Virus record (IMG/VR): IMGVR_UViG_3300006919_000334
Span: 1 to 27,584 of that record
DNA length: 27,584 nucleotides
From: a virus
Reading direction: 5' to 3' (one strand)
The first letter of the stretch is position 1. Each line of letters opens with the position of its first letter. This document shows, one piece after another, positions 922 to 24,434 of the stretch. The notes under the pieces were generated by a model. That model worked only from the letters and a program-made list of their open reading frames with translations. It was not told where the DNA came from and ran no database searches. The position numbers were made by a program, and so were the translations under genes.

Positions 922-1686
922 TCAGTTTTCTATAAACTGAATTTTTGATTTTACAGTTAAATTTAGCCAGTTAACCTTATTGTACGTAATCGTATGAACT
1001 TTATTTACCCCATCCTTACAAATATAAGTAACTGGAACAGGTAAATAATGATTGCCAACTATATTTTTAAGTGTATCAAATACATAAGGCATCGTTTTAG
1101 CGTGGTCTTGCATAATCTTTGCAGAATCAGAATCCAACAATTCATTAATTGGATGTGTATTTATATCTTCGCAGTTATCTCCTACACGAAAATAATTGCT
1201 TAATTCATCTTCAGTATAACCAAGTCTTTTTGCTAGTGGAGCCATAGTATCTATATTTGTAATAGAACGACCTATTTTAAAACCATTTCTTACTAGTTTG
1301 ACATCAACCATATAATCAAATTCAAGCATATCCCAATGAGTACTTTCTGCTTGTTTCTCTCTTAATACACTCTTTAATTCGTCTATTTCTGTTTTTTGAT
1401 AAGCTATCTTATCTTTTTGTAATCCTATTAAATAACGAGGGTCTATTTCGTCTTCTCCACTGGATTCGCTACTGGTTGAAGAATTAAAACCTATTGTCAT
1501 CTTTTCTCCTTTTTTAAATAAATCACCGTATTTATGCACAACTTTTAAATAATTACTATCTCTTATTTCAGATTTTTTAGACACCCAAGCATAAAGAGTG
1601 TTTCTAGATATGCCAGTTTGCCTTGAAATCTCAGTGAGAGGTATTGGCGTATTGCTTAACCACTCTAACATATCATTTTTGCCCAT
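922..1686 (-). CDS. HTH repressor with C-terminal PAS-like sensor domain
   Basis: This 254-residue protein is the best candidate for the lysogeny repressor. Residues 17-37 (LTEISRQTGISRNTLYAWVSK) form a helix-turn-helix. Residues 62-83 are a Ser/Glu-rich linker and 85-115 a heptad-like coiled coil probably used for dimerisation. Residues about 140-245 look like a PAS domain: a helix ending LGYTEDEL, then a later strand pair with ICKDGVNKVHTITYNKVNW. There is no visible S24 peptidase (LexA/CI-type cleavage) domain. The gene is transcribed away from the 1813 gene across a 126-base gap holding an operator-like inverted repeat, which is classic repressor geometry. An AGGAG lies just upstream of the ATG. 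The PAS assignment is by pattern; the HTH is clear. Confidence 0.75.
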   Translation of the reverse strand: MGKNDMLEWLSNTPIPLTEISRQTGISRNTLYAWVSKKSEIRDSNYLKVVHKYGDLFKKGEKMTIGFNSSTSSESSGEDEIDPRYLIGLQKDKIAYQKTEIDELKSVLREKQAESTHWDMLEFDYMVDVKLVRNGFKIGRSITNIDTMAPLAKRLGYTEDELSNYFRVGDNCEDINTHPINELLDSDSAKIMQDHAKTMPYVFDTLKNIVGNHYLPVPVTYICKDGVNKVHTITYNKVNWLNLTVKSKIQFIEN

Positions 1687-1812: not shown

Positions 1813-2133
1813 ATGAGATTAGATACATTAATTACCACAGAAACAAAGAACAGCTTATTAAACCTTTCACTATCTCTTAAACGTAGTAATATAGACAGAC
1901 AGAGAGCATTAGTTAAGGGAGATTATTACGCTGATGAAATAACAAAGATACGTCATCTTAGTAAAAAACAACTTGTTAAGTTTATTGAACAGAAACGTAA
2001 TAAACCAAGTGTTAAGCTTGGTATCAAAATTGCCCACTCGAGCTCTACGAAGATGTATAGAATGCTGGATAGAAAAGTTCATCAAGATATCGAATTGATA
2101 AATTATGCTAGAAATCGTTTGTATGCTTCTTAA
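1813..2133 (+). CDS. 106-aa basic protein, first gene of the rightward operon (possible early regulator)
   Basis: The protein is rich in Lys and Arg (RLDTLITTETKNSLLNLSLS at the start, then several basic helices) and has no recognisable domain. It is the first gene transcribed from the repressor-controlled region, with AGGA at 1801-1804 serving an ATG at 1813. That is the position where lambda-like phages place Cro- or N-like regulators. A strong intrinsic terminator follows it and separates it from the replication operon. An antirepressor or antiterminator role would fit the position, but nothing in the sequence proves it. It could equally be a small nucleic-acid-binding protein of another kind. 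Confidence 0.65.
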   Translation: MRLDTLITTETKNSLLNLSLSLKRSNIDRQRALVKGDYYADEITKIRHLSKKQLVKFIEQKRNKPSVKLGIKIAHSSSTKMYRMLDRKVHQDIELINYARNRLYAS

Positions 2134-2146
2134 CGAAGAGCACCCC

Positions 2147-2202
2147 TGGTACGCCTCCTCCTTCCTTACCCGATACTACAATTGGGGGCGTACCATATTT
2201 TT
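2147..2202 (+). terminator. strong intrinsic terminator before the replication operon
   Basis: TGGTACGCCTCC (2147-2158) pairs with GGGGGCGTACCA (2184-2195) over 12 positions including one G-U. A 25-base pyrimidine-rich loop lies between the arms, and the stem is followed by ATTTTT. It lies between the 106-residue gene and the MazG-like gene, so rightward transcription must read through it or restart after it. Confidence 0.8.
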
Positions 2203-2211
2203 AATAGAATT

Positions 2212-2637
2212 ATGAGTAACAAACAGATTGTCAAGTTAATCGAAGAACGATTAGAGCTTGGCAAACGAGAATACACCGAGCAATTGGATGTAAACGATGG
2301 TCGAAACTGGCTTCAAGAGGCACTTGAAGAAGCGTTGGACCTTTGTGTTTATCTAACTGCTGAAATACAAAAGAGAATAGAAAGACCTTATAGGTATATC
2401 GCAACTGCAAGGCTAGAAGACCACGATAATGGTCTTTATCAAATAGAATCAAGTGGACGCTTAACATGGCATAAAATACAGGAAGAAATAGCAATATTAA
2501 TAAACGATGGAGCTTTTGGTGATGATAAAAACGATTGGATGTCTGTATACATAGACACTTGTGTCGAATTGACCCCAGATGGAGATACAGACGGTATATT
2601 CATTGATGGGTATCAAGAAGTTGATAGGTTGCTTTAA
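2212..2637 (+). CDS. MazG-like nucleotide pyrophosphohydrolase domain protein
   Basis: The start chosen is ATG 2212, giving 141 residues. An upstream TTG at 2182 lies inside the terminator and is unlikely. Residues 1-57 match the all-alpha NTP pyrophosphatase pattern of phage MazG-like proteins: a first helix (IVKLIEERLELGKREY), a short loop with NDGRNW, then LQEALEEALDLCVYLTAEI carrying the E-E-x-x-D metal-binding motif. Family members hydrolyse (d)NTPs to (d)NMPs and pyrophosphate, and some phage versions influence nucleotide pools or alarmone signalling. The remaining ~85 residues are an acidic alpha/beta extension with no recognised family. No clear Shine-Dalgarno precedes the ATG, which is odd for this genome. 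Confidence 0.65.
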   Translation: MSNKQIVKLIEERLELGKREYTEQLDVNDGRNWLQEALEEALDLCVYLTAEIQKRIERPYRYIATARLEDHDNGLYQIESSGRLTWHKIQEEIAILINDGAFGDDKNDWMSVYIDTCVELTPDGDTDGIFIDGYQEVDRLL

Positions 2638-2649
2638 AAAGGACTACGA

Positions 2650-2880
2650 ATGAGAAAAATATACAAAGTAATACTATTGCAAGATGGAATAACCACTGTT
2701 GACACAAGATTCTTTACAAGTGGAAAAGAAGCAATAAAATATGGAGAGTTTCAATCTAAAGCAATGTCATATGAAGAGTTTGACCATGCAGTATCAGTTA
2801 CTTATGAAATAAAAGCATTGAGAAAACCCACTCGTCAAAAAGAATGGGTAAGGTTTATCAATCTTCATGGAACTGTATAA
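2650..2880 (+). CDS. 76-aa hypothetical protein
   Basis: A good AAAGGA site precedes the ATG. The protein opens with a beta strand (KIYKVILLQDGITTVDTRFF), then has a helix (GKEAIKYGEF) and another strand (AVSVTYEIKAL), a small alpha/beta outline. No family is recognised. It is followed closely by the histone-fold candidate, with 11 bases between its stop and the chosen start of that gene. Confidence 0.65.
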   Translation: MRKIYKVILLQDGITTVDTRFFTSGKEAIKYGEFQSKAMSYEEFDHAVSVTYEIKALRKPTRQKEWVRFINLHGTV

Positions 2881-2891
2881 TAAAAAAGCTT

Positions 2892-3098
2892 ATGAATAGA
2901 CCAACACAAACAAACATAAAAAAGATATTTAGAGAAGCTGGTGTCCAATTAGGCACCCAATCCATAAATATGATAGAGAAAGAGATGGTATTCCTTGCCC
3001 AAAGAATGGCTATTCGCTGTAGGGAAGGAAACCTTAAACGATTAACTCCAGAATTATTCTGGGTAGCAATGGGGAGACAAAATGGGTCATCTTATTGA
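2892..3098 (+). CDS. candidate histone-fold small DNA-binding protein, 68 aa
   Basis: From ATG 2892 the protein is 68 residues, the size of a single archaeal histone. Its order of helices follows the histone fold: a short helix NIKKIFREAGV, a long central helix from about TQSINMIEKEMVFL to MAIRCREG, then KRLTPELFWVAMGRQ. The last part resembles the KRKT-x-x-x-D-x-x-x-A-L-x-R-Q turn and helix of histone H4, and the first resembles I-R-R-L-x-R-x-G-G-V. The central helix appears about one turn shorter than in archaeal histones. If correct, it would bind or wrap phage DNA, or act as a transcription or replication accessory factor. An ATG at 2844 in the same frame lies inside the previous gene and would add 16 unrelated residues. 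The last 17 bases overlap the DUF932 gene. The assignment rests on pattern reading only. Confidence 0.45.
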   Translation: MNRPTQTNIKKIFREAGVQLGTQSINMIEKEMVFLAQRMAIRCREGNLKRLTPELFWVAMGRQNGSSY

Positions 3099-4080
3099 AA
3101 ATATGTTTTACTTGGGTGAAACCCCCTGGCATGGCTTAGGAACGCCATTAAAACAAGTTCCTACGATAGAAGAAGCGTTAGAATTGTCTGGTATGGACTT
3201 TGAGGTAAAAAAAGTACCTACTGTTTATCAAATGTATAGTGACGCAGGTGATTATATCTTAAAAGATACTGGACATTTTGTAACTATTCGTTCTGATACT
3301 AATAATCCAATAGGTAATGTTGGTAAAAAGTACGAAGTCTTGCAGAACCGTGATGCTTTTGCACCATTTGAGGTGATACAAGACTATGGATATAAATTGG
3401 AAACTGCTGGTGTGATTGACGAAGGAAAGAAAGTATGGATTCTTGCAAAGACTCCTGACACTTTTCAGGTTGGGGATGATATGATACAAGGCTTTGTCTT
3501 GTTGTATACATCTCATGATGGGTCATCTGGCAGTTGTTTTCGTGATACGTCTGTTCGTGTTGTGTGTAATAACACATTAACGTGGGCATTAGGGAAGAAA
3601 GGTGGCTATGAGTATAAGCTTAGGCATACCTCTTCTATTAATTCACGGATGAAAGAGTTAACAGGTAAGCTAGAAGAACATAAAGGAAATGTAGCACAAG
3701 CTATGGACCATATGAACCGATTCGTTGAAGTTGACATGACTCCAGAGACTCTGAAGTTATACATCGAATCTGTAATGCCTTGGTTAAAAGGCAGGCATAA
3801 AGAGTCTGTTCCAGAACTAGGAATATTTGTTCGTAACAGAGCAAAGCCTGTGTATGAAAAGATTACTGACCTATTCTACAATGGGAAAGGTAATAAAGGT
3901 AGGACGTTGTGGGATGCTTATAATGCCATTACTGAATTTCATGACCATGAGAAGAATCATAAAGACTGGGTAAAAGGTACTCAATTCGGTGCTTCTCATC
4001 GTGATAAGATGAATGCGTATAGAATAGCAACTGCAATGGCAGAACACAGTAGTAACAATACAATAATAAGTTATAACTAA
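3082..4080 (+). CDS. DUF932 (phage/plasmid-like, TIGR03299-type) protein
   Basis: This 332-residue protein begins MGHLIENMFYLGETPWHGLG. The features are typical of DUF932: an N-terminal W-H-G-L-G block, a V-x-x-x-Y-x-x-x-Q-N-R-D-AF segment (GKKYEVLQNRDAFAPFEVI), then VRVVCNNTLTWAL and LRHTSS. The length is normal for the family, which is common in phages and plasmids next to recombination and replication genes. The biochemical role is not established. GGAGA precedes the start, and the gene overlaps the upstream small gene by 17 bases. It sits directly before the annealing protein, a frequent arrangement. Confidence 0.9.
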   Translation: MGHLIENMFYLGETPWHGLGTPLKQVPTIEEALELSGMDFEVKKVPTVYQMYSDAGDYILKDTGHFVTIRSDTNNPIGNVGKKYEVLQNRDAFAPFEVIQDYGYKLETAGVIDEGKKVWILAKTPDTFQVGDDMIQGFVLLYTSHDGSSGSCFRDTSVRVVCNNTLTWALGKKGGYEYKLRHTSSINSRMKELTGKLEEHKGNVAQAMDHMNRFVEVDMTPETLKLYIESVMPWLKGRHKESVPELGIFVRNRAKPVYEKITDLFYNGKGNKGRTLWDAYNAITEFHDHEKNHKDWVKGTQFGASHRDKMNAYRIATAMAEHSSNNTIISYN

Positions 4081-4088
4081 GGAGTTAT

Positions 4089-4925
4089 ATGGAAGAAGAA
4101 AGAAATCTGTTCGCTTATAGTTTAAGAGAAGCAGATTACAAACCTTTCGTAGAAACCATTGGGGGAGGAAGCTTTGAGGCTTCCTACCTTTCATGGTCTG
4201 TTTGCTGGGATAATTTAAAATCATTATATCCCTTGGCTAGACACGAATGGATAATGTACACATATGGAGATAAACCATTTGCTGGTATTATGCAACCAGA
4301 TGGTTCTGTAATTGTGCATTGTAAAATAACCTACGAAACAGAAGATGGTGACACGTTTGTACACGATGAATATCTTGCTGTTCGTGATAATAGAAATCAG
4401 TCAGTTCAGAATCCAAATTCTGCTGAAATGGAAAACACTTATCGCAGAGCGTTAGCAAAAGGTGTTTCAACTTTAACTGGGTTTGGTATTGAATTGTGGA
4501 TGGGTGAAGACGTTAAAGAACTTCAACGACCTCAACAAAGAATGCTAAATGGCGATAGACCAACTCTAGGTGGAGTAACTGTTGACCAGAATGTAAAGTT
4601 GGACGCATTGATGCGTGACCCCTTAGCCAATCAAGAAGATAAAGATAGATTGAAAAAGATGAAAGAATCTGGTTGGGAAGGTGTTACAGAAGAGGTCGCT
4701 ACTATTTTAATAGCTGATGTAAAAGAAGGTATCGTTCAAAATAGAAAGATTACCATGGCGAAAAGAAACAAGACGATTAAACTGATTGAAAATTCTGACT
4801 TAGATGCTGATAAAATGAACAAAGCGTTAAAATGGATACAAATTGACAAGAGAACAAATCTTGAAGTTGATACATTTTTAAATAAGAATAAACTAAAGGA
4901 GAAGGCACAAAATGCAATTCACTAA
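4089..4925 (+). CDS. DUF1071 (Sak3-type) single-strand annealing protein
   Basis: Residues about 27-148 of 278 match the DUF1071 annealing family. They run from a W-x-x-x-x-D-N-L-K-S-L-Y-P helix (WSVCWDNLKSLYP), through a strand pair with DGSVIVHCKITY and EYLAVRDNRNQSV, to ENTYRRALAKGVSTLTGFGI followed by L-W-M-G-E-D. This block is the usual signature of these phage recombinases, which anneal complementary single strands during recombination-dependent replication and repair. The C-terminal 130 residues are Lys-rich and helical. TAAGGAG precedes the ATG. The gene overlaps the SSB-like gene by 14 bases, and a Holliday junction resolvase lies further down the same operon, giving a coherent recombination module. 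Confidence 0.8.
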   Translation: MEEERNLFAYSLREADYKPFVETIGGGSFEASYLSWSVCWDNLKSLYPLARHEWIMYTYGDKPFAGIMQPDGSVIVHCKITYETEDGDTFVHDEYLAVRDNRNQSVQNPNSAEMENTYRRALAKGVSTLTGFGIELWMGEDVKELQRPQQRMLNGDRPTLGGVTVDQNVKLDALMRDPLANQEDKDRLKKMKESGWEGVTEEVATILIADVKEGIVQNRKITMAKRNKTIKLIENSDLDADKMNKALKWIQIDKRTNLEVDTFLNKNKLKEKAQNAIH

Positions 4926-5502: not shown

Positions 5503-5813
5503 TGGCTTACGACTTTTCAAAAGTTATGGGTATCAAGGGGCGTAGCAATGAAGCTATGCTCCTTGAATGGCTAAAAAGCAGAAAAGACACCTTAATAGGT
5601 GCTCATGAAGTTCAATTAAGTGCTGTTGAGTATATCCGTACAATATTCCAGAAACCTGTCACACCAGATACTATATCTAGGTTGTGGAGAAAAATGAGAG
5701 AAGACTTTCGTACAGATAAAGAGAATTCAATTCTTTATCGTAGTGGTCTTACCTATGAAGAGCAACTTACCAATCGTGGAAAGCAGAAATACTATAGAGT
5801 GTCTGATGCCTGA
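5502..5813 (+). CDS. small winged-helix-like protein, 103 aa
   Basis: The protein has helices at EAMLLEWLKSR, EVQLSAVEYI and TPDTISRLWRKMRED, then a likely wing and an ending GKQKYYRVSDA. The order resembles a winged helix-turn-helix with TPDTISRLWRKM as recognition helix, a form often used by phage replication-initiation or regulatory proteins. It is coupled on both sides: its ATG overlaps the SSB-like stop, and its stop overlaps the PrimPol-helicase start by 8 bases. A role in loading the helicase or in origin recognition is an inference from position. Confidence 0.65.
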   Translation: MAYDFSKVMGIKGRSNEAMLLEWLKSRKDTLIGAHEVQLSAVEYIRTIFQKPVTPDTISRLWRKMREDFRTDKENSILYRSGLTYEEQLTNRGKQKYYRVSDA

Positions 5814-7620
5814 TAAACGCATGGTAGAAATTGCCACAGGGCACGTTTCCAATAGAAATCAAATAGCAGAACTAAGCAATATCAGTTCTTATATCTTTGA
5901 AGCAAACATGAAAACGGAAACCTATCATAGTTGGTATTGTTTCGATGAGCAATTAAAACAACACATTGATTCTGTAGGTACGATTCAAGGGTTTAATGGT
6001 GCATACTATATTAATAGTATCATTTTAGACTTTGACAAGAAAGACCTAGAAGATAAGGTGTTATACGATGCTGTTCATTGGCTTGTAAATACTGAAATGG
6101 TAGAAGACCTTGGCATCAAAGAGGAGCATATCCTTGTTTGGTATTCAGGTACTGGATTCCATATTGAGATTCCAAATCTGTTTGGGTTCAACCCCTCTAC
6201 TACCTTGCCTGGAGTTGTAAAAGAAACACTTCAGACCATTTTCCCTGAATGTGACAATATCTATGATGGGGCACGTTTAATTCGTGCTCCATTTAGCTAT
6301 AATAGCAAAAAGGGTAATTACAAGATTCCTTTTACGGTTAAAGGTTTTAATAGTTACGATATAGATACTATTAAAAAAGCAAGCAACGAAGGGTTTAAGG
6401 AAAAACATTTAAGCTCAATTGATTCCATTAGACAATTATGGGAACATCTTGAGCCTTATTTGCAGTCCTACATCAAATACCCTGAAACAAGGGTCATTGC
6501 AAAAGACACCGTTAGAAGTCAATTTAGAATTGACCCTAATTCAGTAGTTACTTGTATGCAAAACGTAATAGGAAAAGCTCCTGTTGTCGGTGAGCGTAAT
6601 GATACTATGATGAGGGTTGGTTCTTGGATGAGACGTACTGGAATGCCTTTAGATGTTGTAAAGCATACATTAAGAACTTGGTCTGGTTTAGGCGAAGAAG
6701 CTGATGACTGTGCTAGTAAGGTATTTGAAACAGGATACGAATATGGATGCAATGATTACCTAATGGCTAAGCATTGTAAACCTGAATGTATATACTTTAA
6801 ACATAAAGACTATTCAATGAATCTAAAGAACGCAGATGACATGGCTGATGAGTACGCTGAGTTTCTGCAAAAAGACTTTACGAATAGCTCGTTTAATTTT
6901 GCAGATATATACAAGATGAATCAAGACTTCTGGGTACTACCAGGGGAATTGGTTATTGTGTCAGGTAATACTGGTATGGGTAAATCTACGTGGGTAATGA
7001 ACCTCGTAAGTAAAATTCCCCATCTTCCAGTAATGTTCTTGTCTTTGGAAAATCAACAACATTTGACGTTTAGAAGGTTTATTCAAATGTGTCATGGTTT
7101 AACAAAGGAAGAAGCAATGGCAGTCTATAGGGACCCTGAGAAAAAAAGAGAGTATCAAAAAGCCTTTAGCCATGTTCAAGTTACTTGTGAACCTCCTGAG
7201 TTATCCAGATTAATTGAAGGGATTGCTAGGAGTAAACCAAAAGTTGTTGTGGTAGACACAAGTGATATGATTTGGGTAAAAGGCATTCACGATGAAATAG
7301 GAAAAATGAATGAGATTATCAATGGACTTAAAGGTGTAGCACAAAATCAAGACTGTATAGTGATTGTAGTGCATCACGTAAACAAGGAAGCTCAGAATAC
7401 TGGAGTAGTTCGTATGAGTAGTTTAAAAGGTACGAGCAATGTCTCTCAGAAAGCTGACAAAGTATTGGTAATCAATGGCGAAATGCACGAACTAAGAAGG
7501 AGTGTAACAAGTGAAAAAGCAAGAGATGAAGGGTATATGCAGTTAATGTTTGAATTCTCAAGAAAGGATTTTCTATTCAACCAGGTCTCAGGCGAAGGTG
7601 GTTTTAATGTTCAAAGTTAA
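5806..7620 (+). CDS. PrimPol-helicase fusion (AEP primase + DnaB-type helicase)
   Basis: From ATG 5806 the protein has 604 residues. This start overlaps the upstream stop by 8 bases; an ATG at 5743 would give an unrelated leader. The N-terminal half carries archaeo-eukaryotic primase motifs: D75-F-D77 (metal-binding hhhDhD), S114-G-T-G-F-H119, and G155-A-R-L-I-R-A-P. Residues about 265-295 resemble a PriCT segment, and C315, C324 and C328 could bind zinc. The C-terminal half is a RecA-fold DnaB-like helicase: Walker A G387-N-T-G-M-G-K393-S-T, Walker B at 480-484 ending in D484, a DnaB-like LSLEN segment, and H523-H524. One chain would thus unwind DNA and make primers, as in the PrimPol-helicase of Nitratiruptor phage NrS-1. 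All key residues look intact. Confidence 0.85.
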   Translation: MPDKRMVEIATGHVSNRNQIAELSNISSYIFEANMKTETYHSWYCFDEQLKQHIDSVGTIQGFNGAYYINSIILDFDKKDLEDKVLYDAVHWLVNTEMVEDLGIKEEHILVWYSGTGFHIEIPNLFGFNPSTTLPGVVKETLQTIFPECDNIYDGARLIRAPFSYNSKKGNYKIPFTVKGFNSYDIDTIKKASNEGFKEKHLSSIDSIRQLWEHLEPYLQSYIKYPETRVIAKDTVRSQFRIDPNSVVTCMQNVIGKAPVVGERNDTMMRVGSWMRRTGMPLDVVKHTLRTWSGLGEEADDCASKVFETGYEYGCNDYLMAKHCKPECIYFKHKDYSMNLKNADDMADEYAEFLQKDFTNSSFNFADIYKMNQDFWVLPGELVIVSGNTGMGKSTWVMNLVSKIPHLPVMFLSLENQQHLTFRRFIQMCHGLTKEEAMAVYRDPEKKREYQKAFSHVQVTCEPPELSRLIEGIARSKPKVVVVDTSDMIWVKGIHDEIGKMNEIINGLKGVAQNQDCIVIVVHHVNKEAQNTGVVRMSSLKGTSNVSQKADKVLVINGEMHELRRSVTSEKARDEGYMQLMFEFSRKDFLFNQVSGEGGFNVQS

Positions 7621-8043: not shown

Positions 8044-8256
8044 ATGCTAGTTAATACAACATTTCAAGATATTTGCTTTGCTGTGGACCGTCTATGGACT
8101 GTCCTAAATGAAGCCAAAGGTTGGGATGATAAAAATAGTATCAGCAGTATAAATAGTGAAAATTGGAGCGAAATAGTAGACGCTATGAAAAGTCTCGAAG
8201 AAGAACTAGAAATAGACAGAGATGAAAATGGCGAATATTATTGCACTGCAATATGA
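8044..8256 (+). CDS. 70-aa acidic hypothetical protein
   Basis: AAAGGTG precedes the ATG at 8044. The protein is short and mainly helical (TTFQDICFAVDRLWTVLNEA and IVDAMKSLEEELEIDRDE) with a strongly acidic end. Its stop overlaps the resolvase start as ATGA at 8253-8256, suggesting translational coupling to that gene. No function is recognised. Confidence 0.55.
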   Translation: MLVNTTFQDICFAVDRLWTVLNEAKGWDDKNSISSINSENWSEIVDAMKSLEEELEIDRDENGEYYCTAI

Positions 8257-8555
8257 GCAATCCTAGTAAACGTAAAGGGAATGCATTTGAACGTGAATTA
8301 GTACAAAACGCTAAGGGCTGGGGTTTCTCAGCCCGAAGGGCGTGGGGTTCTAATGGGCGGTCTTTGGGTATGCACGAAGAAGTTGATTGTGTAATTGAAG
8401 ACTATACCGTTCAAGCAAAAATACGTAAGACACTGCCTAAGTATCTCAAGTGTGAGCATACTGATATAGTGGCATTTAGAGAAAGCAGAGGTACTACCTA
8501 TGCTTTGATGCCAATGGACACTTTTTATGATTTAATAAAAAAACTTAAAGGATAA
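8253..8555 (+). CDS. Hjc-like Holliday junction resolvase
   Basis: From ATG 8253 the protein has 100 residues. It starts with K-R-K-G-N-A-F-E-R-E-L, the classic opening of archaeal Hjc-type resolvases, followed by W-G-F-S-A-R-R-A-W-G-S-N-G-R. The PD-(D/E)XK metal site can be traced: E13, D45 in HEEVDCVIED, and Q54-A-K56 in place of E-x-K. The length is near the short end for the family. The enzyme would cut four-way junctions produced by recombination, matching the annealing protein and SSB-like protein upstream. The ATGA overlap with the preceding gene fixes the start. Confidence 0.8.
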   Translation: MSNPSKRKGNAFERELVQNAKGWGFSARRAWGSNGRSLGMHEEVDCVIEDYTVQAKIRKTLPKYLKCEHTDIVAFRESRGTTYALMPMDTFYDLIKKLKG

Positions 8556-8879: not shown

Positions 8880-9110
8880 ATGCAATGGGCTATTGATGCT
8901 TTTTGTGGATTAAACACAAAAAAAGGAAAAAGTAAAGTTGTTGAAACATCGGCAGGAAAATATCAAAGAAAACTATCGGATAGAATGAGTTACTGTGTTT
9001 CTTGTGAATCAGTATGGGAAAAAGACAGAAATCAACCAAACTATATATTTAAATATCAAGGATTCCCTACATGGGGAATCAAACGAAAGGAGTGTAAGTA
9101 CTGTGAGTAA
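8880..9110 (+). CDS. 76-aa zinc-ribbon-like protein
   Basis: Two cysteine pairs, C-V-S-C and C-K-Y-C, lie about 30 residues apart in the second half, as in small zinc ribbons. The first half is short and basic (KKGKSKVVETSAGKYQRKLS). The protein could bind nucleic acid or a protein partner. Its last codons overlap the GTG start of the next gene, and its end contains that gene's AAAGGAG ribosome site. Confidence 0.6.
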   Translation: MQWAIDAFCGLNTKKGKSKVVETSAGKYQRKLSDRMSYCVSCESVWEKDRNQPNYIFKYQGFPTWGIKRKECKYCE

Positions 9111-9969: not shown

Positions 9970-10281
9970 ATGTCGTCCCTCAAGCGAGGGGCGAGTGGGA
10001 AGTTAAAGGAAAAAAAAGATTCACGAACGCAAGCAAGAGCAAAAGATATAATATATTATTTAGGCGAAGGATGGATAGATATAACGTTAATTGCCAACGA
10101 AGCTTGCACAACTTATTATAGAAACATAGGTACTTCATCGTATCAACCTAAGCGTTGCCCAAAATGTAAAATGTACTGGGTCAACACCGTTGTTGATTCA
10201 AGTGGTTCTATAAAGCCGAGGAAACTAGATAGTCATTTTTACAATATACCAACAGAAAAAGAAAAATGTTGGAAATGTTAA
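9970..10281 (+). CDS. 103-aa zinc-binding protein
   Basis: A strong AAAAGGAG precedes the ATG. The N-terminus is basic (SSLKRGASGKLKEKKDSRTQ). The cysteine pairs CPKC and CWKC, about 37 residues apart and the second at the very C-terminus, suggest a zinc ribbon. The helix DITLIANEACTTYYR adds a possible DNA-binding helix. Excisionase-like control of the neighbouring integrase would fit the position, but the sequence does not show a MerR- or Xis-type fold. Its stop overlaps the integrase stop on the other strand (shared TTAA at 10278-10281). Confidence 0.65.
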   Translation: MSSLKRGASGKLKEKKDSRTQARAKDIIYYLGEGWIDITLIANEACTTYYRNIGTSSYQPKRCPKCKMYWVNTVVDSSGSIKPRKLDSHFYNIPTEKEKCWKC

Positions 10282-11174
10282 AGCGTAAAATCCTCTATAT
10301 CGTCCACTAATAAAGGAGCGTAATGGTCTTGTGTTGTTTTTACGCAACTGTGACCGAGTAATTTGCTTAATTGATATATAGGCATACCCTTTTTTATTAG
10401 ATTTAATCCAAATGTCCTACGTAGGTCGTGAAAACGAGCGTCTTTTATATCAAGCCTACGTGCGTTCCACTTAAACTTCTTTGTAATAAAATCTAGCGTG
10501 TAGCTCCATAGTTTTTCTGTAGAAGCTAATACCCCACGTGCTTGTGCATTAAGCTTTATAAACCTTTCTCCACTTTTTCCATAGACCTTCATTCTAGTTG
10601 GCTCTATATAATAAGGTTTAATATTGGTAAGCTCTCCCCTCCTAGCTCCTGTGTAATAAGCAAATCGAATAAACTCTTGAAATTCGTCATCTTGAAACTC
10701 GGTTAGGATTATAGAAATTTCTCTTTCATTAAAAACCCTGGTCCTTCCTTTTTTCTTATTTACTTCCATTAGGTTTAATTCAGTTCTAATGCCTTTTGAT
10801 ATCCCCCAATTTACGCAAGCATTAATTCTTGTCTGATAGCCCCTTGCTGTTTCTTTGTTTTCAGGCAATACACGGTTTTTTACAAAACTATTTAAAACGT
10901 ATTTTGTAGTTTGTTTGCTTGCTTCGGTCCATTTACTTAATACATCTTCATCGTTTAAGTATTTTTTTACAAGGGTAGAAAAACTTTCGTATGTTTCTTT
11001 GGGTTTTGGTGCGTAGTAATCACTTAAGGCTTGATATTCCAACGCTGTATGTAATTTATTAGCAGTGTTTTCATTTTTAGTGTGAACTGGGAGTACTACC
11101 CTATGACCTTGTATCTGTTTTCTGTAGTAAATATTACCAAATGAGTCTTTATACAGATTTCTCTTTAAACGCAT
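10278..11174 (-). CDS. int: tyrosine integrase
   Basis: The 298-residue protein has the normal phage-integrase layout: an N-terminal arm-binding region, a core-binding helical domain at about 60-140, and a catalytic domain from about 145. All catalytic residues are visible: R178 in T-G-A-R-R-G-E-L, K200 in the V-Y-G-K-S-G hairpin, H249 and R252 in F-H-D-L-R-R, H275 in L-L-G-H, and the nucleophile Y285 in Q-D-H-Y-A-P-L. It therefore looks active. The gene is read away from the adjacent tRNA-Val fragment, the usual att/int arrangement, and AAAGGGGG precedes its ATG. It would recombine this attP with a host tRNA-Val gene. Confidence 0.93.
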   Translation of the reverse strand: MRLKRNLYKDSFGNIYYRKQIQGHRVVLPVHTKNENTANKLHTALEYQALSDYYAPKPKETYESFSTLVKKYLNDEDVLSKWTEASKQTTKYVLNSFVKNRVLPENKETARGYQTRINACVNWGISKGIRTELNLMEVNKKKGRTRVFNEREISIILTEFQDDEFQEFIRFAYYTGARRGELTNIKPYYIEPTRMKVYGKSGERFIKLNAQARGVLASTEKLWSYTLDFITKKFKWNARRLDIKDARFHDLRRTFGLNLIKKGMPIYQLSKLLGHSCVKTTQDHYAPLLVDDIEDFTL

Positions 11175-11350: not shown

Positions 11351-12952
11351 TTACTTTTCTTCGTTTTGTGGCAATACCGATGGTGCTAATAGACCTAGTT
11401 GCCAATTTTCTCTTAGCTTTGCTTGCCATTTAGGTGATAATGACTTCATTGTATAATCTAAATATTTGCTATCTAAAACGCCCAATCCCATATCATCCCT
11501 AGTTGGGTCTATTAAACCCCTAGCTCTTCTTAACCTATTCATCATATCGACATTGGTTTTGTAATTAAATAACGCTTGAGCACCTATTTTGTCTTTAGGA
11601 CCAATGCTAAACATCTCTTGGTATCCCATAGGGGGACCAGAATCGAACTTAGGGTCATTGTACCCTAGCGTTCTTACTGTTTTTTCATCCAATCTAACAT
11701 CGCTATGCAATCCAGGTCCTCTATACCACGCTTTTGCAACAGCATCATTCTGAATTCCGTGTTTTCTTATTTCAGCCTGTGATGGAACAGGTAAACCAAA
11801 GTCTCTATACTGTTGCCTTATCCTTTCAATGTTATTGCCAATGGTCATATTTGTATAAAAATCATCATTTCCCATTGCTTTCATATCTTTTAATCTTTCT
11901 GGTACTGCCCTTGCTCCATGTGTCTTAATAGGATACCTTGTTACGTCCCAGACTCTAAGCCCTCCACCTGTTTGTCCTACTTTATAATGCCTATCTGGGT
12001 TATCCCTTGCAATTCTTTGAATGCCTTCTATTGCCTCACCTGGGTTATCGTATTTTATTTGCATTGCATCAGAATAATGCTCTCCTTTAAATCCACTGGG
12101 AGTGCCAAGGTCTATGTCATGCATTAATCCTCTTTGGGAAAGGTATTGCAATTGGTTCACAGCATTTTTATCTACTACGTTTCTAAAGCCACCCATTCCT
12201 CTTATTTGGTCTAAGTTCCAGTCCATTGGAATGTTATCACCTAATTCATCTACAAACCAAGGGTAGTCATCACCTTGTCTTTCTAGGCGTTTTAAAAATT
12301 CACTATTGTCAATAACCTCAGGAAGCTTAGTATGCGGATTATAAACAACCTGTTTGTTATACTCTCCTAAATTACGAGCTTTTATTTTTGCATCGTCTAA
12401 AGCTTTTTTTGACGTTAATTGCTCAGGAGTTAAAGTTAATCTTTTCTTAGTATCTTTTATTGTCCCTTTAAATAGGTCAAAATCACGTGGGGTGCTTGAA
12501 GCTACTGTATGTCTGGGGATGTCTATGCTTTTAGGTGTCACAGAAACGTTGTTATAATAATCATATGTTTTGTTGCTTGGGGCGTATGCCAATGAGGCAT
12601 TCTCTGCTGGTATCGTCTTTTTTGGAGACCTACCTAGTAATGCCCCACCTATTAATCCAAGTGCTGGATTTTTCATAGCCAAAGCATCTGTAGCAATGCT
12701 TGCTACCGCACCACTAGGAGAAGGATATACTTCTGTGGGAATTAATGCAGGATTTCCAGCTTGTATAATTTTACCTTCTTCAGTTACTGCAAAATTTCTT
12801 CTTTTAAACTCTTTATTACTTAAAGGAGAGGTCATTTCTGAATCTTCTACGCCATAATACTTTGGTCCTGCAAGACGCACTCCTTTAGATTTGAATTTTA
12901 TGCCTAAGCTTTCAAGTAAATCTCTATAATATTTTTGCTCTTTAGGTCCCAT
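11351..12952 (-). CDS. 533-aa virion/cargo protein, last gene of the late operon
   Basis: This is the last gene of the virion operon; its start overlaps the giant gene's end by 11 bases. Residues 8-24 end in L-G-I-K-F-K-S-K-G, resembling residues 27-43 of the giant protein (Y-G-V-P-F-G-K-K-G). Residues 79-107 form a small-residue, membrane-like segment (AVASIATDALAMKNPALGLI). Residues about 323-383 hold a conserved-looking block: Y-K-V-G-Q-T-G-G-G-L-R-V-W-D-V-T, then L-K-D-M-K-A-M-G-N-D-D-F-Y. A similar Y-x-T-x-G-G-x-R pattern is, to my recollection, seen in other phage proteins of unknown role. A co-packaged ejection or cargo protein is the best reading; no enzyme motif is evident. Confidence 0.7.
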   Translation of the reverse strand: MGPKEQKYYRDLLESLGIKFKSKGVRLAGPKYYGVEDSEMTSPLSNKEFKRRNFAVTEEGKIIQAGNPALIPTEVYPSPSGAVASIATDALAMKNPALGLIGGALLGRSPKKTIPAENASLAYAPSNKTYDYYNNVSVTPKSIDIPRHTVASSTPRDFDLFKGTIKDTKKRLTLTPEQLTSKKALDDAKIKARNLGEYNKQVVYNPHTKLPEVIDNSEFLKRLERQGDDYPWFVDELGDNIPMDWNLDQIRGMGGFRNVVDKNAVNQLQYLSQRGLMHDIDLGTPSGFKGEHYSDAMQIKYDNPGEAIEGIQRIARDNPDRHYKVGQTGGGLRVWDVTRYPIKTHGARAVPERLKDMKAMGNDDFYTNMTIGNNIERIRQQYRDFGLPVPSQAEIRKHGIQNDAVAKAWYRGPGLHSDVRLDEKTVRTLGYNDPKFDSGPPMGYQEMFSIGPKDKIGAQALFNYKTNVDMMNRLRRARGLIDPTRDDMGLGVLDSKYLDYTMKSLSPKWQAKLRENWQLGLLAPSVLPQNEEK

Positions 12953-15900
12953 CGTTATCTTTCCTTATCATAGTTCCAAATTTATGGACAGGGATACCAA
13001 ACATAAATTCAGCAGTCATTTCTGGTCTTTCTAGAGTCATGATTGTACTTCGTGCCAATCTTCCAAATGGTAACATTGTCCAAGTATAGTAGTTTGCCCA
13101 TCGTTCCCACTCTCCATTTATAAGAGCAGTCATAAGTGGCATCCAGTATCTATGTATAGGAGCAGTTGCTACTTGTAATGGTGCAAGTATTGGAGAAGGA
13201 TAAGCACTAAAGAACGCTCTTTCTCTTGCTTTTTTATCTCCAAATAGCCAATCAGCAGTATCTTGTACATAAGATAAAGGCGGTGGAAGAATGCTATCAA
13301 ATAAAGAACCAACAAATACTTGGGCTAAAGCAAAAGTAGATAAATCCATTATGGCTAATCTTTTTAACCTGTCGATAGATTTCTTATCATTGAATCCATA
13401 AATCTTTGCTTGTTTGTAAATATCTCTTCTAAAACGAATAGAATTCCACATAAAAGGTTGAAACCTTGTAAACACTTTACCCATTGTAGACCTAGCAACA
13501 GCAGGTCTATTTACGTTGTGATATAAAAACTGAGTAGCTTCTACTCCCTTTAATGCCATTCCTGTTAAATAAGGATGGTCAAAGGGCATATTAGGTATTA
13601 TTTGCCCCAATGCTTCTCTTGCATTTAAGTAATGAGCAATAAAAGCGTCTGTACGTAGAGTTCTTTCTGATGCTCTCATAAACCAACCACCAGCAGATAG
13701 GATAGAATCTGTTACTTGGTATTTCTTAGCTAAGTCCATTACAGTAGCATCAGTAATGTCTCTTTTAGAAAAAACTTCCTTAAAGAAAGGCTTTAGTTTT
13801 TTAATGTCCAATCTTTTATCCATCATTGCTTCGTTAATGTAAAAAGATTCTAATGCACCTATCTCAGCTACCCATCTATGTATGGTATTCCTATCTGTAA
13901 TTGGAGTCCCATCTTTTAATTTTGCTCCTGCAAATACGTTATTGACCAGCCATTTAACATCTCTAGCCCTTTTAAATTTGCTAAAACCCATATTCGTAAT
14001 AGTGTTTGAGCTACCACCTACTACGTTACCTAAGTATGTTTTAGGATGAGCAAGTAGAGATATAAGAGACAATTTTGATTCATAAGCACCTATGTTATTT
14101 AATATCTGGTATAAGACTTGATGTCTTGCTTTCTCAGAAGTAGGTAAATCCATTCCAAATAACTTTGGAGCCTTAGGTGTTCCATGAAACTTCTTACTAA
14201 TTCCTGGTATAGCCCATTTGTTTAATTGCTGTGATTTAGCATCTAAGTATTCCACCATATTCTGGTCAGACATTCTGTATTCTAAATTTTGCAATGGATT
14301 GAACAAAGACGTTCTAGTGCCATACTGTTTTTTTATTTTATCGTCTCTTTCTATTTTTCTTTTATCCCATTCTTTTTGTATGCCTTCAGGGGATTCTTTT
14401 ATTCTTTGTTTTAATTTTGCTCTTTCTACTATGGTCAGTCCAGTATACTTTGTAGGCAATGCATTGGGTTTTCCCATTAAGCTACTAGCATACTTTCTCA
14501 TTTCGTTAACCCACATATCGCCCATTTCTGGGTTCTCTTTAACAAAAACATTATTCTGTTCGTAATTATTAATGACCTTACGGAATGTCAAAGCATTCAT
14601 ATTCTTAAATAAGGAGCTTACCCATTGGTTTGTGTAAGCCTCTAGTACTTCAAAGCCATAACTAAAGTGAGGAACGTGAGTATCGCCTCTTTGTTGTCCT
14701 GTACCTGGTCTATATTCAGCGTTAATATCTTTCCACTGTTCTTTTCCCTTACGGAATTCAGCGTTTAAAAAGTTTACAAGGTAATCAGATTGCCCATTAG
14801 CACTTTCTACTCTTTGCCCAAGATACAATTGATAGTCAGCATTTTGACTTGCAAGTTTTAGGTCTATAAGGGTTTGCTTTATGTTGTTTGCTCCATAAAC
14901 CCCCCAGATTTCCTTTTGTTTTTCTTTAGGCATTCTACCTGTTAATGCTTGCAATTCTAGTTCTTTGAATTGGTAACGCTTAGGTATTTTATAAACGGAG
15001 TCTTCTTTAACGGTCTTACCACCTTGAGTTAGGTCATTTACATAGTTTTCTAATTTGGCTTTTAACTTTAACTGCTGTTCTTGTACCCAAGGTTTTAATT
15101 TTTTAGTATCGTGATTCATTTGGGGGAAATACTCTGTAACAAATCCATCCTTACCTTCACTTCCTACTCTACCTATGCCAAAGAATTCATTTGCCTTTCT
15201 CCAAGCAACCCTAGCATTTTTTGCTTCATCTGAATTTCTTTTTATTTTTTTACTAAGTAAGTGTTCCTCCATCGCTATTTCATGCTGTACTCTGTTTAAT
15301 AATTCAGTACTCATAGGGTTGTTGCGATTGCCTAGCATTTTATTTAGGGCATTTACACCAAAGGTTTCTACGTTGTCCATAACCTTTTTTTGAAAGTTTT
15401 CTATATCAAATCTTCCATTTTTATCGTATCGTATAAAGTCATGTATAAATAAACCGTTACCAGCCCATTCCATTTTCTCATCAATACGCTTCCAATCAAC
15501 TCTTTGGAATTCACCTTCTGCATCAATGACTCCAGCACCTAAATAGCTTTCATAAAAGTTTTTTAAAAATCTTCCTTGCTGTTCTTGAATGTCTTTTATC
15601 AGTTCTTCTGATGTTCTTTCTATTACTTTCCCATTTCTAGTTATTTTAAATGTTTTTCCTTCGTATTTACTTTCCCAGAGTTTCAATGTATTTGCCCATT
15701 CCTGTTCGTAAAAAGCAACGTCTTCTGTTTTCCACGCTCTTTCACGGTTCATACTCTTTTGAGCAAACATAAACAAGTCAGTAAAGGATTGAATGCCATT
15801 TGGTATAGCTTCTAATTCAGCTTTAACAGAAACTCCTGTAAATAAAGACTCTACCATGCCATTTTTAATTGAATCTTCTAGCTCTCTCATTTGACCTCCA

Positions 15901-18900
15901 ACCTTCTGAAGAAAGGACATAGAGGACAAAGGCACTTTAATGGTTGCAAGACCAAAGTCTTTGGCATTGCGTATAGGTGTTTTCATTTTAAACAACAAAT
16001 CAAGGTCGTGACCAGCTTGTTTTTTTCCTACTGTATCTGGAAATAAGAAGTTGTATAGTTTTTTTACTTTGCCTGTCTGATTGGTAGAGTTAACTATATC
16101 TTTTAAAAACCTGTTAAAGTTTCTTATATCATCCCATGTTGCCATTTTAATACTAGTTGGTCCATCTCCTTGTTGTGCTTTCATGTAAGTATACAGGTCC
16201 TCAAATCGAAGAATTGCACCATCAGGTAAGGTCTTTAAGCTTTGCGTAATGCTCCTTAATACTTGAGGAATATCATTGGGTATGTTTTGTGCTTTGCCTT
16301 TTGTTTCTTTTGCTACTTCAACACCACCTACTTCTGTGGGTTTAAACAACCTGTCAATTTCTACTTCAGCTATTCTTTCTCCGTCAATATTGCTATCTAT
16401 TTCTCCTAGCTTGGTATCTTTTTTTGATTTTGATAGATAATCAGTAACTTCTTTTCCAGCCTTCTCAGGGCTAACAGTATTTAATAAATCAAAAGTATCA
16501 GCATACCCTTTCATAAACTGAGCTTTGACACGGTCAGGTATCGCATCCATTGACCAAATAAATCTAGGTGTGCTGGTATTTTCGTATTGAGCCCTTGTTC
16601 GCTCTTTTTCAGCTTTTAATATTTCTACCTTATCAAGCTCGCCTCTTTTTTCAGCAGTGGCTATTCTTCCATTTAAATTTCTTATTAGTCCCTCTAATCG
16701 AACAGGTTGAGGACGTAAACTTGATAAAAGGAAATTATAGTAATAATCAACCGCTACCTCTGGTTTGATTTTTAGTTCTTTTGCAATCTTACTGATTTCA
16801 ACTACGTCTTTTCTAATAAGATTGTTTGCTTCCTGTTCGTTTTCAAACACACGTTGATTCTCGTTTCTAAAAGTATGGTTAAACTGTATCTTTATTGCTT
16901 CTGCTTGTCTTGCTATAATATCCCTTAATACTAAGAACTTACTTTCAGATTGAGTCTTTGGTTGCTTTCCAGCTTGGATATCGTCTACTGCTTTTTGTAT
17001 TTGCTTGGACCATTTCTCATTTTCAAGAATCTCAATATTATTACCAGTTATTTGCTCGCCATTAACAATACGATTGGCAATCTCATTGATGCGTTCATAA
17101 GGAATTTGACCTTTTTCTACAGTATGCCCTGCTCCTTTTAATGCCCTATCTAATGCCTTGCCTTTCATATTAAGCTGTAAAGCACTCCAAACATCGTAAG
17201 AGTCGTTTATCTTGTATTCTTTTTCAACTCTTGAGCTATAACGCATAATAGGTTTAGGGTTTTGACCTGGTTCCCATCTTTTATTACTGAACATATTATT
17301 AAAAGTTCTTTGAATCTTTTTTCCAGTATCGCCCAGCCTTACTTCTAAAGGTGTTAATCCTTCGCTATTAGGAGACTCTAAAGCTTCCCATAAAAAATCT
17401 CTATAGGGTTCTTTATCTTCTTTCCTTCCTCCTTTTTCAGGGACCTGACCAAGTTTTTTACCACTCTTTGTTATAAAATCAGGATACTTTTTCATGGCAC
17501 CATATACTGCCTTATAGTCAATACTATAATACAATGGCATTACTCTTAGGTTCTTTCTAGTAATGTAGTTTAAAACGTTCTTGTCCCTTAGTAACTCCCT
17601 GCTTAATAACCTTATGGATTCCCTGTACGTCTCGTAATTAAAATGACGTAGAGGGTCAATGTTCATTTCATTTTGACTTACTTTATGGGCAATATCTACG
17701 ATAGCACTCATTGTCTTTGGGGCTCCAGTAAAAGGTCTTACAGCGTCTTGTATCTCTGAAATAGTAAACGCTCTATTGTTTGCATAATCATAACCATACA
17801 ACTTTCTGTTTAACTCATGTAGATGTTTATACTCTAAAGAATTTTTAATATCCTGTAATGTACCTTTCCTTGGTTTAGCTTTTTTATTACTTGGAATAAA
17901 AGTAAGTTTTTCAAAAGCAGAATTAGTTACAATTTGTATTAATTCTTGAGGGTTAGCCATATTCCAATAATTTGCACTATCAGCAGTTCTACTATGTGCT
18001 TCTGTACCTACTACATAATATCCATCTTCTTTATATAGTTGCTTTTCACTAGTCTTTCCTACAAGGGTACCTACCCATTTTGTTTGTCCTTCTCTATTCT
18101 TTTTATAAATATCAACATTTAGATTGCCTTTTTTATTGGTAATTATATCTGCTAAAACATTTTGCAAAAACGATTTTGCATTAACAATTTGTTCTAATCC
18201 TTTTTTACCTTCATACGCACTCATTCCTGTTTTGCGTAAAGCACCAGGAGACCATTGACCCAATGGATTGTTTTTTACATAGTCTAAATCTGCTTTAGAA
18301 ACTTCACTTTTAAAGAGCTTGTCCATCTTTTCTGCTTTATTTTCAAAGAAAATGCTCTTATCACCCTTAACTCTTTCTAAAAAACTGTCGTTTTTGACCA
18401 AATCTTGCATATATTTTTCAGGCAAACCCTGATAAAAGAACACTTTATCACCATCTACGTCTGCACCGTCAATATAAAAGTGGTCTCTGCCCCTCATATA
18501 AACGCCCCAATTGGCTAAATCAACATCTGACCTAGCAAATCCATCAAACAATAAGCCTCTTGTGCCTGAAATAGCGTTTGCTGGTACCCTCATAACCGCA
18601 AACATTAGCTTATTTCTCATTCTAGCTTTTAATAAAGGCTCTTTTTCAGCCTTAAATTCCTCCCAAGCTTTTTCTAGTTCTATTTCTTTGTCTTTTCCTA
18701 TCCATTTTACCTTCATTTTTCTGTGGCTATGTCCCACTTTAAAATGACCAACTTTTCTTTTGACCAATTTGCCATCTTCAAAAAAATCATAGCTTGTATT
18801 CTTTTTAATACCCCCAGTTAAGGATTCCATTACTGGGTCTACACCAGCCACCCAGCCACTTCCTGAGTTTTTCCATTCTGGATTTGTGAATTTATTCATA

Positions 18901-21900
18901 CGATAAATATGAACAGACTTCTCGTATAAACTGTTGTTTATGATGGCAGATACAGGATTATAACCAGTAGCTCGATACCATCGTTCAAAATTATTAGCAT
19001 ATTCTTTTAACTCTTCATACACAGCACCTTCAAATTCTTCTGCTTTTTCTAGTTTTTTAATCTTTTTAAAGATATCCTTATTCAAAGATTCGTGCAGTTT
19101 GTGATTTGGGTTATTAATAACTCGAATAAAGTCTTTATCGCTTAATTCTGATACTTTAAAACCTTGAGGTGGTAATGCATCAGGGTTTTCTTTAAGGGAT
19201 TTTATATAGTTGTTTGCAATATCAGAACCATGAACAGTTTGGTGGTGAATAGCATCCATGAATTCTTGATAGCCTTCTTTGCTCATGGTCAAGCTATCAA
19301 AGAAAGAATGCATTTGTTTTTTTATAGTAGTGGGCTCTGCTGAATGTTTATCGCCATACACTCCAAAGTTAATTCTAAAGTCCTCTACTTTCATTTTTAG
19401 ACTAGGACCATCGTAATCCTTTATTTCGTATTTACCATTCTTCTTAGCCTGCCCTCTATATACTTTTGTTCCTTCTGGCATAGCTTTAATTGCAGAGGTT
19501 ACTACTATCATTGAATTTTTACTAGGCATTGCATCGTTGTAAGCCTTTGCACCAGGATGAACTCCTCCTTTAACTAAGAATAAGCTTCCATCTGGCATGG
19601 TAACTGCTACTGCTGGTTTCATATGAGACATATCTGTCCCTTTAAATCCGTTTGCCTCCATAAACCTTTTGTACAGGTCTGAATGCATAACCAACCAGCC
19701 ATCAATCTTGCTTTCCCAAGCCTGCTTAACCAGTTTTCCGTTCTTATCAACAGTCCAGAATGTTTCTGGCTGTTTTCCTTCTACATTAAGCCACTTTTTA
19801 CCAATCTCGCCAGCTCTACTCAGTAAGTTCTTTTCTGCTTCTATGGCTATAATATTAATTTCACCAGTACCCTTGGTGATGTCTTTAAAGAATTTAGAGT
19901 CTTGTTCGTAGAATGACTTTGAAGACAACAATGCTTCACGTTTTACTCGAGCAATAGCACTTTTAAAGTTCCAATTCTTTTCATAGAGATAATTCGATTT
20001 GAATGCCTTATTATATAGATTACGTAATCCTTTATTTTCAATAATTGCTTTGTCTTTTACAGGGTCATAACCCATAGTTTCTAACCAGACTTTATAATCT
20101 TTTTCAATGTATTTATTAAGAAGGTTTTTGGTAATTAACTTACTGTTTGATTTCTTTACGACTTCATTTATAATTGTTTTTAATTCAAAATTTTGGGTTT
20201 CAGGGTGGTACTCATAGATTCTTTCAACCCCTCCATCTTTTTTGGGTATCTTGAGGTACTGATTTTTTTTATTTAATCCTTTGGTCACATTTAGCCAGTC
20301 TTCTTTTGACATGACCATTTCAAATTGTCTTGTTTTACTATTCCATACTCTTTCATATGGTTTTAAAGTGACGTAAGTATTGCCTTTTTTGTCAACAATC
20401 TCTGCGAATTCTCTTACAGTAACCTCATCTCCCCAAAGTTTTTCATGCATTTTTTCATCAGCAGACCTAGGCTCATACCCTACTACCTTTTTCTTTAGGG
20501 CATTAAAGCCCCATATGCTCGATGTTTTTTTCTTTGTTTTATTAAAGCTAACAATAGGTCGTAAAATGCCTTGCGATAGTCTTGTGAACATTTGGGTTAA
20601 ACTGTTCTGCATTTCAGGGGTTACTCTAATTCCTGGAAATTTGTCTTGGACGATTTGTATGTATTCTTTTACCATTCCACGAACAGGGATGAATCGTGTA
20701 TCTTTTTTACCACCTTCTGTCTTTGGGATTAACTCATTGTAAGTTTTTACAGCGTGCTCTAGCACTTCATTGCCATCGTAAATATCGGATTCTTTTTGCA
20801 GTTGATTTAAAAATCGTTTTATTACTGGTTCAACAATTACTTCAGGTTGGTCTGAAAGGATTACCTCTTCTGCTTTAAGTATATCTTGACTGGTTACTTC
20901 TATTTTTTCTTTTGGTAGTTCTTCAAAATGCTCTTTAATTCTTTTTTCAAGTGGGTCTATGTATCCTTCTTTTACTTGTGCAAGCTCTTCAGGTGTAAGC
21001 TTATCTGCAATTTCCTTAACCTTTCCTTCTGGTTCAATCTTAGGGTCACGTATTTGCCTCATAACCCCTTCAGCAATTATATTCATTTCTTGCTGTTTTC
21101 TATAAGACCTAGGTACCATATCAAGTAACTCTGCTTTTACTTCTGCTATTTCGTGAGGTTCAAGGTTTTCTACTTTCTTTCCAAAATCTTCTGCTTTTTT
21201 ATTTAAAGCTTCATTGTAAGGCTCTACTATTTTTTCTGCCAACACTACACTTGCTACAGAATCTGGGTCATTTCTATCTAATTTTGAATTTTCCATTCTA
21301 TCCCAGATATCACCTATATGCTGAGAATACTTTTCTTTAACAAGTTGTTGAGATTCCAATGGTAATTCTTTATATGCTTCAGAATTAAGCATATCTCTCA
21401 TTTCTGTAAAGTCTCTTTTTAAAATACCGTCTTCTTTCTTTTCATTGTACCTATTAAAAAATTCTGTTGATTTCTTTTCTACAACACCGTGAGCACCATA
21501 CCCAAAAAAAGCACCCAATCCATATTCATATATTTGCGTAGCAGTTGGAGCACCTTGAGCTGTTGCCATTCCACCTTGAAATGCAGAACCTAATGCTCCT
21601 CTTAGGATTTGCCCTCTATTATCCCATAATGTATTAGAAAATTCTTTAGAATGTTGCCATAAGGAACGTTTCCCTGCGTCACTAACAACTTTATTAGGAT
21701 GTTGAACCATATTTCCTATACGAACAAAGTTTCCCAATCCTCCAAAGAATCCTCCTGCAACTGCTCCAAATATTAAATTATCTACTTCATCATCTTGCCC
21801 ATTCCACATACCACTTACAGCACTTGCCACAGATAAATGCTGTGCTTGAAATGCCATATCAATCAACTTAGCTTTATGAGTGACTGCTTCACCTGCCTTA

Positions 21901-23482: not shown

Positions 23483-23483
23483 G

Positions 23484-23939
23484 TTATGAATTCCTTATTG
23501 ATTCTTGTTCTGCTTTTAAATTAGCTATTTGGTCTTCTTGAGCCCATAATCTGTCTTGTGCCTTGCCAATTGTGTCTGTTAATGAAGCGTTTGTGTTATT
23601 AACTGCTGTTGAAATTTGATTTTGAAAATTAAAATTCTTTCCTGTGTCAGTAGCCAGAGTAAGAGGAGAACCAGAGTTCTTACCTTGAAGAGCATTCCAA
23701 TCGCTCATGGTCCTTCTATTAAAATTGCCCATTGCGTTTGGAAAAATGTCTCCTTTTCTCTTTTCTATATTTGCTATTTCCCTACTAATACTTGAAATCA
23801 CATTTCTTTGTTTTCTTGCTTTTGACCCACCAAGAAATGAAAAGAAACCGTCTCTTCCAATCCAAGTATCCCACCATCTTCCAGCTTTACTTCCTGAACC
23901 AAGAGCCCATGCTTCTGCCTCATTGTATGTTTTAGACAT
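23484..23939 (-). CDS. 151-aa small virion-operon protein
   Basis: The protein starts with an aromatic Gly-rich segment (AGRWWDTWIGRDGFFSFLGG) and a basic helix (KARKQRNVISSISREIANIE). The end is Asn/Gln-rich and helical, with heptad-like LTDTIGKAQDRLWAQEDQIA. Its ATG shares a base with the preceding stop (TAATG on the minus strand), so translation is coupled. The small size, aromatic start and position between nozzle and giant ejection protein suggest an internal or adaptor virion component. No family is recognised. Confidence 0.65.
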   Translation of the reverse strand: MSKTYNEAEAWALGSGSKAGRWWDTWIGRDGFFSFLGGSKARKQRNVISSISREIANIEKRKGDIFPNAMGNFNRRTMSDWNALQGKNSGSPLTLATDTGKNFNFQNQISTAVNNTNASLTDTIGKAQDRLWAQEDQIANLKAEQESIRNS

Positions 23940-24433: not shown

Positions 24434-24434
24434 G

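Follow-up and report, generated by a model that had tools for sequence, protein, structure and literature searches.

A minimal histone that is encoded by the phage, binds DNA, and acts at the stage of replication is probably the best explanation for the small protein specified by positions 2892-3098, plus strand, of the window (the whole stretch of DNA analyzed, 27,584 bases from a virus record). The protein itself, 68 residues long (MNRPTQTNIKKIFREAGVQLGTQSINMIEKEMVFLAQRMAIRCREGNLKRLTPELFWVAMGRQNGSSY) and basic with a pI of 10.5, very likely has a histone fold. Histones are generally held to be all but missing from bacteria and from the phages that infect them. The gene and its neighbors are arranged as follows.

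922-1686, minus strand: divergent, repressor-like HTH protein (Pfam matches below curated cut-offs)
1813-2880, plus strand: three collinear ORFs (1813-2133, 2182-2637, 2650-2880), the first genes of the presumed early operon
2892-3098, plus strand: predicted phage histone-fold gene, 68 residues, with alpha1 at 4-15, loop L1, alpha2 at 24-45, loop L2 (GNLKR), alpha3 at 53-59, and a short disordered tail
3082-4080, plus strand: DUF932 protein, its start overlapping the end of the histone gene by 17 bp
4089-4925, plus strand: Sak-type single-strand annealing protein, same operon
5743-7620, plus strand: DnaB-like primase/helicase, same operon, the most frequent neighbor of the histone gene
8241-8555, plus strand: RusA-like (PHROG 244) Holliday-junction resolvase-like gene
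8880-9110, plus strand: zinc-ribbon-like protein, with CxxC..CxxC seen by inspection
10278-11174, minus strand: tyrosine integrase

Is so short an open reading frame a gene at all? The original prediction had called it from the sequence, and it is indeed a conserved gene, with a 68-residue frame spanning exactly 2892-3098 (+). Four pattern-based scans of viral contigs, with the divergent branch extended by two further scans seeded with divergent members, found relatives at 93% to less than 40% identity in more than 100 viral (IMG/VR) contigs. After de-duplication, 77 different domain sequences remain, which fall into 36 groups at 70% identity, the lowest pairwise identity being 26%. The relatives start at the equivalent methionine and stop shortly past the last helix, so that members are about 61 to 71 residues long and always consist of one short domain, with nothing C-terminal of it. 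The family median pI is 9.6, and each of the 34 long contigs checked carries a single copy. Among the five closest sequences, all close relatives, dN/dS is about 0.2 to 0.4. The family is under purifying selection, and the reading as a chance ORF fails on the spread of relatives together with this ratio.

The fold call derives from two structural models. AlphaFold2, supplied with an alignment of 18 family members, modeled the window protein with a pLDDT of 86.8 and helices at 4-15, 24-45, and 53-59, the order of short, long, and final helix that had been read from the sequence. A distant member (L076), modeled from 20 sequences, none in common with the first alignment, serves as a replicate and gave a pLDDT of 88.8 with helices at 3-19, 26-49, and 57-63. 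When the first model was compared by Foldseek with 350,542 PDB chains, all of the top 50 matches were histone folds, led by Leptospira HLp (probability 1.00, rmsd 1.4 Å over 48 columns) and followed by CENP-T/W, NF-Y, H2A/H2B, HBb, and others. For the second model, 49 of the top 50 were histone folds, HLp again ranking first and MHF structures appearing among the matches; the sole exception was an Hda-type ATPase (3bos). The VIA-align rows shown for both models consist of histones together with TAFs and transcription factors of histone fold, at Z scores of 4.8 to 5.8, although values below 8 lie in the range that VIA-align itself terms common. The Foldseek E-values are weak (0.19 to 0.4 at best), and a three-helix fold is a simple architecture, which counts against the call. 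Since no single structural match is significant, the weight of this evidence lies in its unanimity and its replication. Two viral proteins in BFVD share the predicted shape: A0A516LUS5 (64 residues, TM 0.76, 21% identity) and A0A516LIY4 (139 residues). Thus, rather than a confident monomer without the histone fold, both confident models show the helices in the order known from histones, and nearly all of their matches are histones, in support of the histone-fold reading.

The proportions of the domain are those of a short histone. From the conserved alpha1 Ile/Val to the clamp position there are 39 residues, versus 40 in HBb and 44 in HMfB. Compared with archaeal nucleosomal histones, helix alpha2 lacks about 4 residues; a helix 4 to 5 residues shorter than the nucleosomal one is characteristic of alpha3 histones (Schwab 2024). 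Helix alpha3 is 7 residues long by DSSP in both models, though monomer models may misplace its end; it measures 3 to 4 residues in alpha3 histones (PMC11390915) and 10 in nucleosomal histones.

At the level of sequence, searches of Pfam, PHROGs, NCBIfam, and PDB sequences with the protein and its alignment gave no significant match, to another family or otherwise. Weak matches to YebC, BMFP, and phrog_2180 were scattered, not common to members, and were set aside. The profile search against histone-fold families that the original prediction had proposed came out two ways: no library profile reached its cut-off, while profile-profile comparison with HBb and archaeal histones surpassed both decoys and shuffles. 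As to the former, the window protein had no match to PF00808 (CBFD_NFYB_HMF), and the best family member scored 13.6 bits against a cut-off of 21.4; HBb itself gets just 22 bits. Among Pfam families, the divergent member L223 comes closest to CENP-X, a histone-fold family (E 0.0086, below threshold), and it also matches PF00808 (E 0.085), both in register. As to the latter, hhalign scored the family at 18.7 against HBb-type plus archaeal histones, compared with 13.9 for the best of 78 decoys (other protein families from the same loci) and 17.1 for the best of 200 column shuffles. A divergent subset aligned with the HBb profile at P=9.5e-5 (hhalign probability 59%) and with archaeal histones at P 5.7e-4, and its score of 25.6 against a combined profile of known histones was reached by none of 300 shuffles. 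Against PDB sequences, the divergent-member profile gave chance matches only, such as RNA polymerase and Sda.

How might such a protein contact DNA? By molecular dynamics, the main DNA-contacting residues of HBb are T8, S9, K10, K12, K16, N22, S24, K52, T53, and R57 (PMC11317129). The hhalign alignment, continued manually across L2, places them in order at window residues 6, 7, 8, 10, 14, 19, 21, 49, 50, and 54. Taken together, these positions exceed the remaining polar ones in conservation (p=0.037), while the comparison with all residue positions is not significant (p=0.087). Four of them stand out in a test that is post hoc: K10 (K in 67 and R in 9 of 77), Q19 (invariant, 77/77), K49 (K in 76/77), and R50 (invariant, 77/77). 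The conservation of K49 and R50 is partly circular, as the retrieval patterns include GNxKRLTP; K10 and Q19 did not figure in the degenerate patterns used for the later scans. The turn K-R-L-T, originally taken as histone-like in its residues, does not match the RxTxxxxD clamp, in which R is replaced by L/V48, T by R50, and D by L55. Where HBb has its clamp, R51-D58, the family has the hydrophobic residues L/V/I48 and L55, and the Arg-Asp clamp is absent. R42, conserved in 67/77, is aligned with the R48 of face-to-face histones, the arginine at the back of their interface. Given this alignment with a tetramerization arginine, dimers may pair.

The protein would then be a histone reduced to a single histone-fold domain, with no tail and no extra domain. 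Two copies would pair through the histone handshake into a homodimer, with which the single gene copy per contig is compatible. The N terminus of alpha1 (K10), L1 (Q19), and L2 (K49, R50) could hold double-stranded DNA by its backbone irrespective of sequence. The dimer would bend or coat the DNA, and dimers might associate into tetramers through R42. Made early, alongside the helicase, annealing protein, and resolvase, the protein would most likely be a nucleoid protein specific to the phage, at work on its DNA during replication or recombination. A DNA-binding homodimer, possibly a tetramer, that coats or bends replicating phage DNA is thus the most likely picture, with DNA binding and compaction as its inferred elements.

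The surroundings of the gene suit such a role. The replication and recombination operon that had been predicted is there, with Sak, the DnaB-like primase/helicase, and the RusA-like resolvase downstream; the gene, however, is not at its head but about fourth, the collinear plus-strand ORFs beginning at 1813. Neighbors were counted at 94 loci, some of which share a contig. Near the histone gene, the helicase family turns up in 61 of them and the 2182-type protein in 60, followed by a resolvase-like protein (33), a Gp157 protein (31), the zinc-ribbon-like protein (about 30), and DUF932 (about 28, in two clusters); all tabulated neighbor families share the strand of the histone gene. A DnaB_C helicase is present in 30 of the 34 long contigs. 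The 17-bp overlap with the DUF932 gene recurs in L001-L003 and is likely to reflect translational coupling. The DUF932 proteins found beside the histone gene belong to two diverged families, represented by window 3082-4080 and L081:376-1101 (16 and 12 loci, respectively). The zinc-ribbon-like protein has the motif KFCxxCxxxWE..PTYGLxRKxCxxC and no Pfam match. In one locus (L047:4746-5186, +), it reads in frame into the histone as one 146-residue ORF. This is possibly a natural fusion, although a ribosome-binding-like site lies upstream of the inner ATG.

The same neighbors invite a different interpretation. In eukaryotes, the MHF (CENP-S/CENP-X) histone-fold complex works with the FANCM translocase. 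A histone-fold dimer could similarly bind branched DNA and stimulate the adjoining helicase, annealing protein, or resolvase, with no compaction. Besides the gene grouping, the CENP-X resemblance of the divergent L223 clade (its best in Pfam) and the MHF structures among the Foldseek matches point this way. Yet the CENP-X match is sub-threshold, the neighborhood varies among members, and there is no sign of a partner chain, with one histone gene in each of the 34 contigs. We consider a fork or recombination cofactor somewhat unlikely.

A transcriptional role is less probable still. A small basic protein whose presumed early operon is transcribed away from an HTH gene might bind phage promoters and control the early-to-late or lysogeny switch, in the manner of NF-Y or archaeal regulators; histone folds do include sequence-specific factors such as NF-Y, which is among the Foldseek rows. 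The conserved contacts, however, correspond to the backbone contacts of HBb, a nonspecific binder (PMC11317129), and a separate HTH protein is also present in the window. We therefore regard an early regulator as distinctly improbable.

As to the phage itself, the tyrosine integrase (10278-11174) and the divergent repressor-like HTH gene (922-1686) suggest that it is temperate. Window 12942-22424 (-) is a single ORF of 3160 residues without a PHROG match, presumably a giant virion protein, and none of the seven minus-strand ORFs of 11351-27400 that were tested matched a PHROG; the phage looks far from described groups. Of the lysin families sought for inference of the host, an amidase rose above its cut-off only in a 152-kb contig, and no contig exceeded the cut-off of the Terminase_6N model. 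A tblastn search of 50,697 deposited phage genomes returned no family member at the sensitivity used, only chance matches (capsid, portal) or none.

Could the target be host chromatin instead? Histones are present in some bacteria and many archaea (PMC11390915), and a phage histone might mix with that of a histone-bearing host, disturbing or mimicking it. Cellular genome contigs contained no relative of the family, and hence neither prophage nor host was found. HBb-type histones, sought in the viral contigs, were not found, so there is no direct bridge between the phage family and HBb; PCNA was found in 0 of the 34 long contigs, which speaks mildly against archaeal hosts. We judge interference with host chromatin very unlikely. 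Equally remote is a chance likeness of the predicted monomer to the histone fold, the protein being a three-helix phage product unrelated to histones. This is a reading that the weak Foldseek E-values and lack of a significant profile match would allow but that the near-unanimous histone matches from two independent models, the profile similarity above decoys and shuffles in correct register, and the conserved DNA-contact positions oppose.

With the minimal DNA-binding histone as the preferred reading, a wider proposal can be put forward tentatively: a widespread, unnamed lineage of stripped-down histones may serve the replication machinery of tailed phages of bacterial hosts as a fork or nucleoid protein, having kept the contact surface and replaced the Arg-Asp clamp with a hydrophobic pair, one lineage perhaps being fused to a zinc ribbon. 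The family escapes recognition by the family databases searched. If the reading is true, the presence of the family in more than 100 viral contigs would mean that the replication modules of some phages regularly include minimal histones. They would also offer (i) a compact system for the action of a single histone dimer at the replication fork and (ii) a system for tracing the movement of histones between viruses and cells.

How does the family compare with known histones? The likeness to H4 and archaeal histones that was originally proposed holds for helix order, which is shared with H4 and HMfB (archaeal nucleosomal); alpha1-L1-alpha2 also aligns in register with HMfB (P 6e-4 to 0.014). It does not extend to the alpha2 length, about 4 residues less here, or to a clamp or tail, both missing, and the resemblance to the bacterial histones HLp and HBb is closer than that to H4. 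HLp (Leptospira perolatii; PDB 9qt0, 9qt1; PMC12701072), the top Foldseek match of both models (rmsd 1.4 to 1.8 Å over 48 columns), differs in being cellular, tetrameric, and DNA-wrapping, and identity is 8 to 17%. HBb (Bd0055, Bdellovibrio; PDB 8fvx, 9ezz, 9f0e) matches in fold and is alike in its single domain of similar length, short alpha2, alpha1 lysines, and basic KT/KR in loop L2. Identity is about 15%, however; its RKT and Arg-Asp clamp (R51-D58) give way here to the hydrophobic pair L/V48-L55 and the invariant R50 (T53 in HBb), and alpha3 is longer in the models. The face-to-face histone HTkC (Thermococcus; PDB 9f2c) superimposes with a Z of 5.5 and an rmsd of 1.5 over 53, its R48 corresponding to R42; it differs in having RxTxxxxD, and its N52 aligns with G46, not N47.

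The closest precedent by description is the "phage histones" of Schwab 2024 (PMC11390915), which combine an alpha3 histone fold with a C-terminal tetramerizing helix, lack RxTxxxD, and conserve K10 and K49, the positions of nucleosomal K20 and K63. In a full-text literature search, that term turned up in one paper besides Schwab (PMC12701072), whose introduction mentions the subfamily by name. Like those proteins (example A0A2E7QIQ9, alpha3 superfamily), the present family comes from metagenomic tailed phages, has an alpha3-type fold, and lacks RxTxxxD. In both, the conserved lysines, numbered K10 and K49 in either case (here K or R in 76/77 and K in 76/77), stand 39 residues apart, and given this equal spacing the two domains, compared by description only, may be of one lineage. 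The helical C-terminal tetramerization domain of the Schwab proteins is seen in no member of the present family. While phage histones as such have already been described (PMC11390915), what is new here is a predicted histone that does without that helix.
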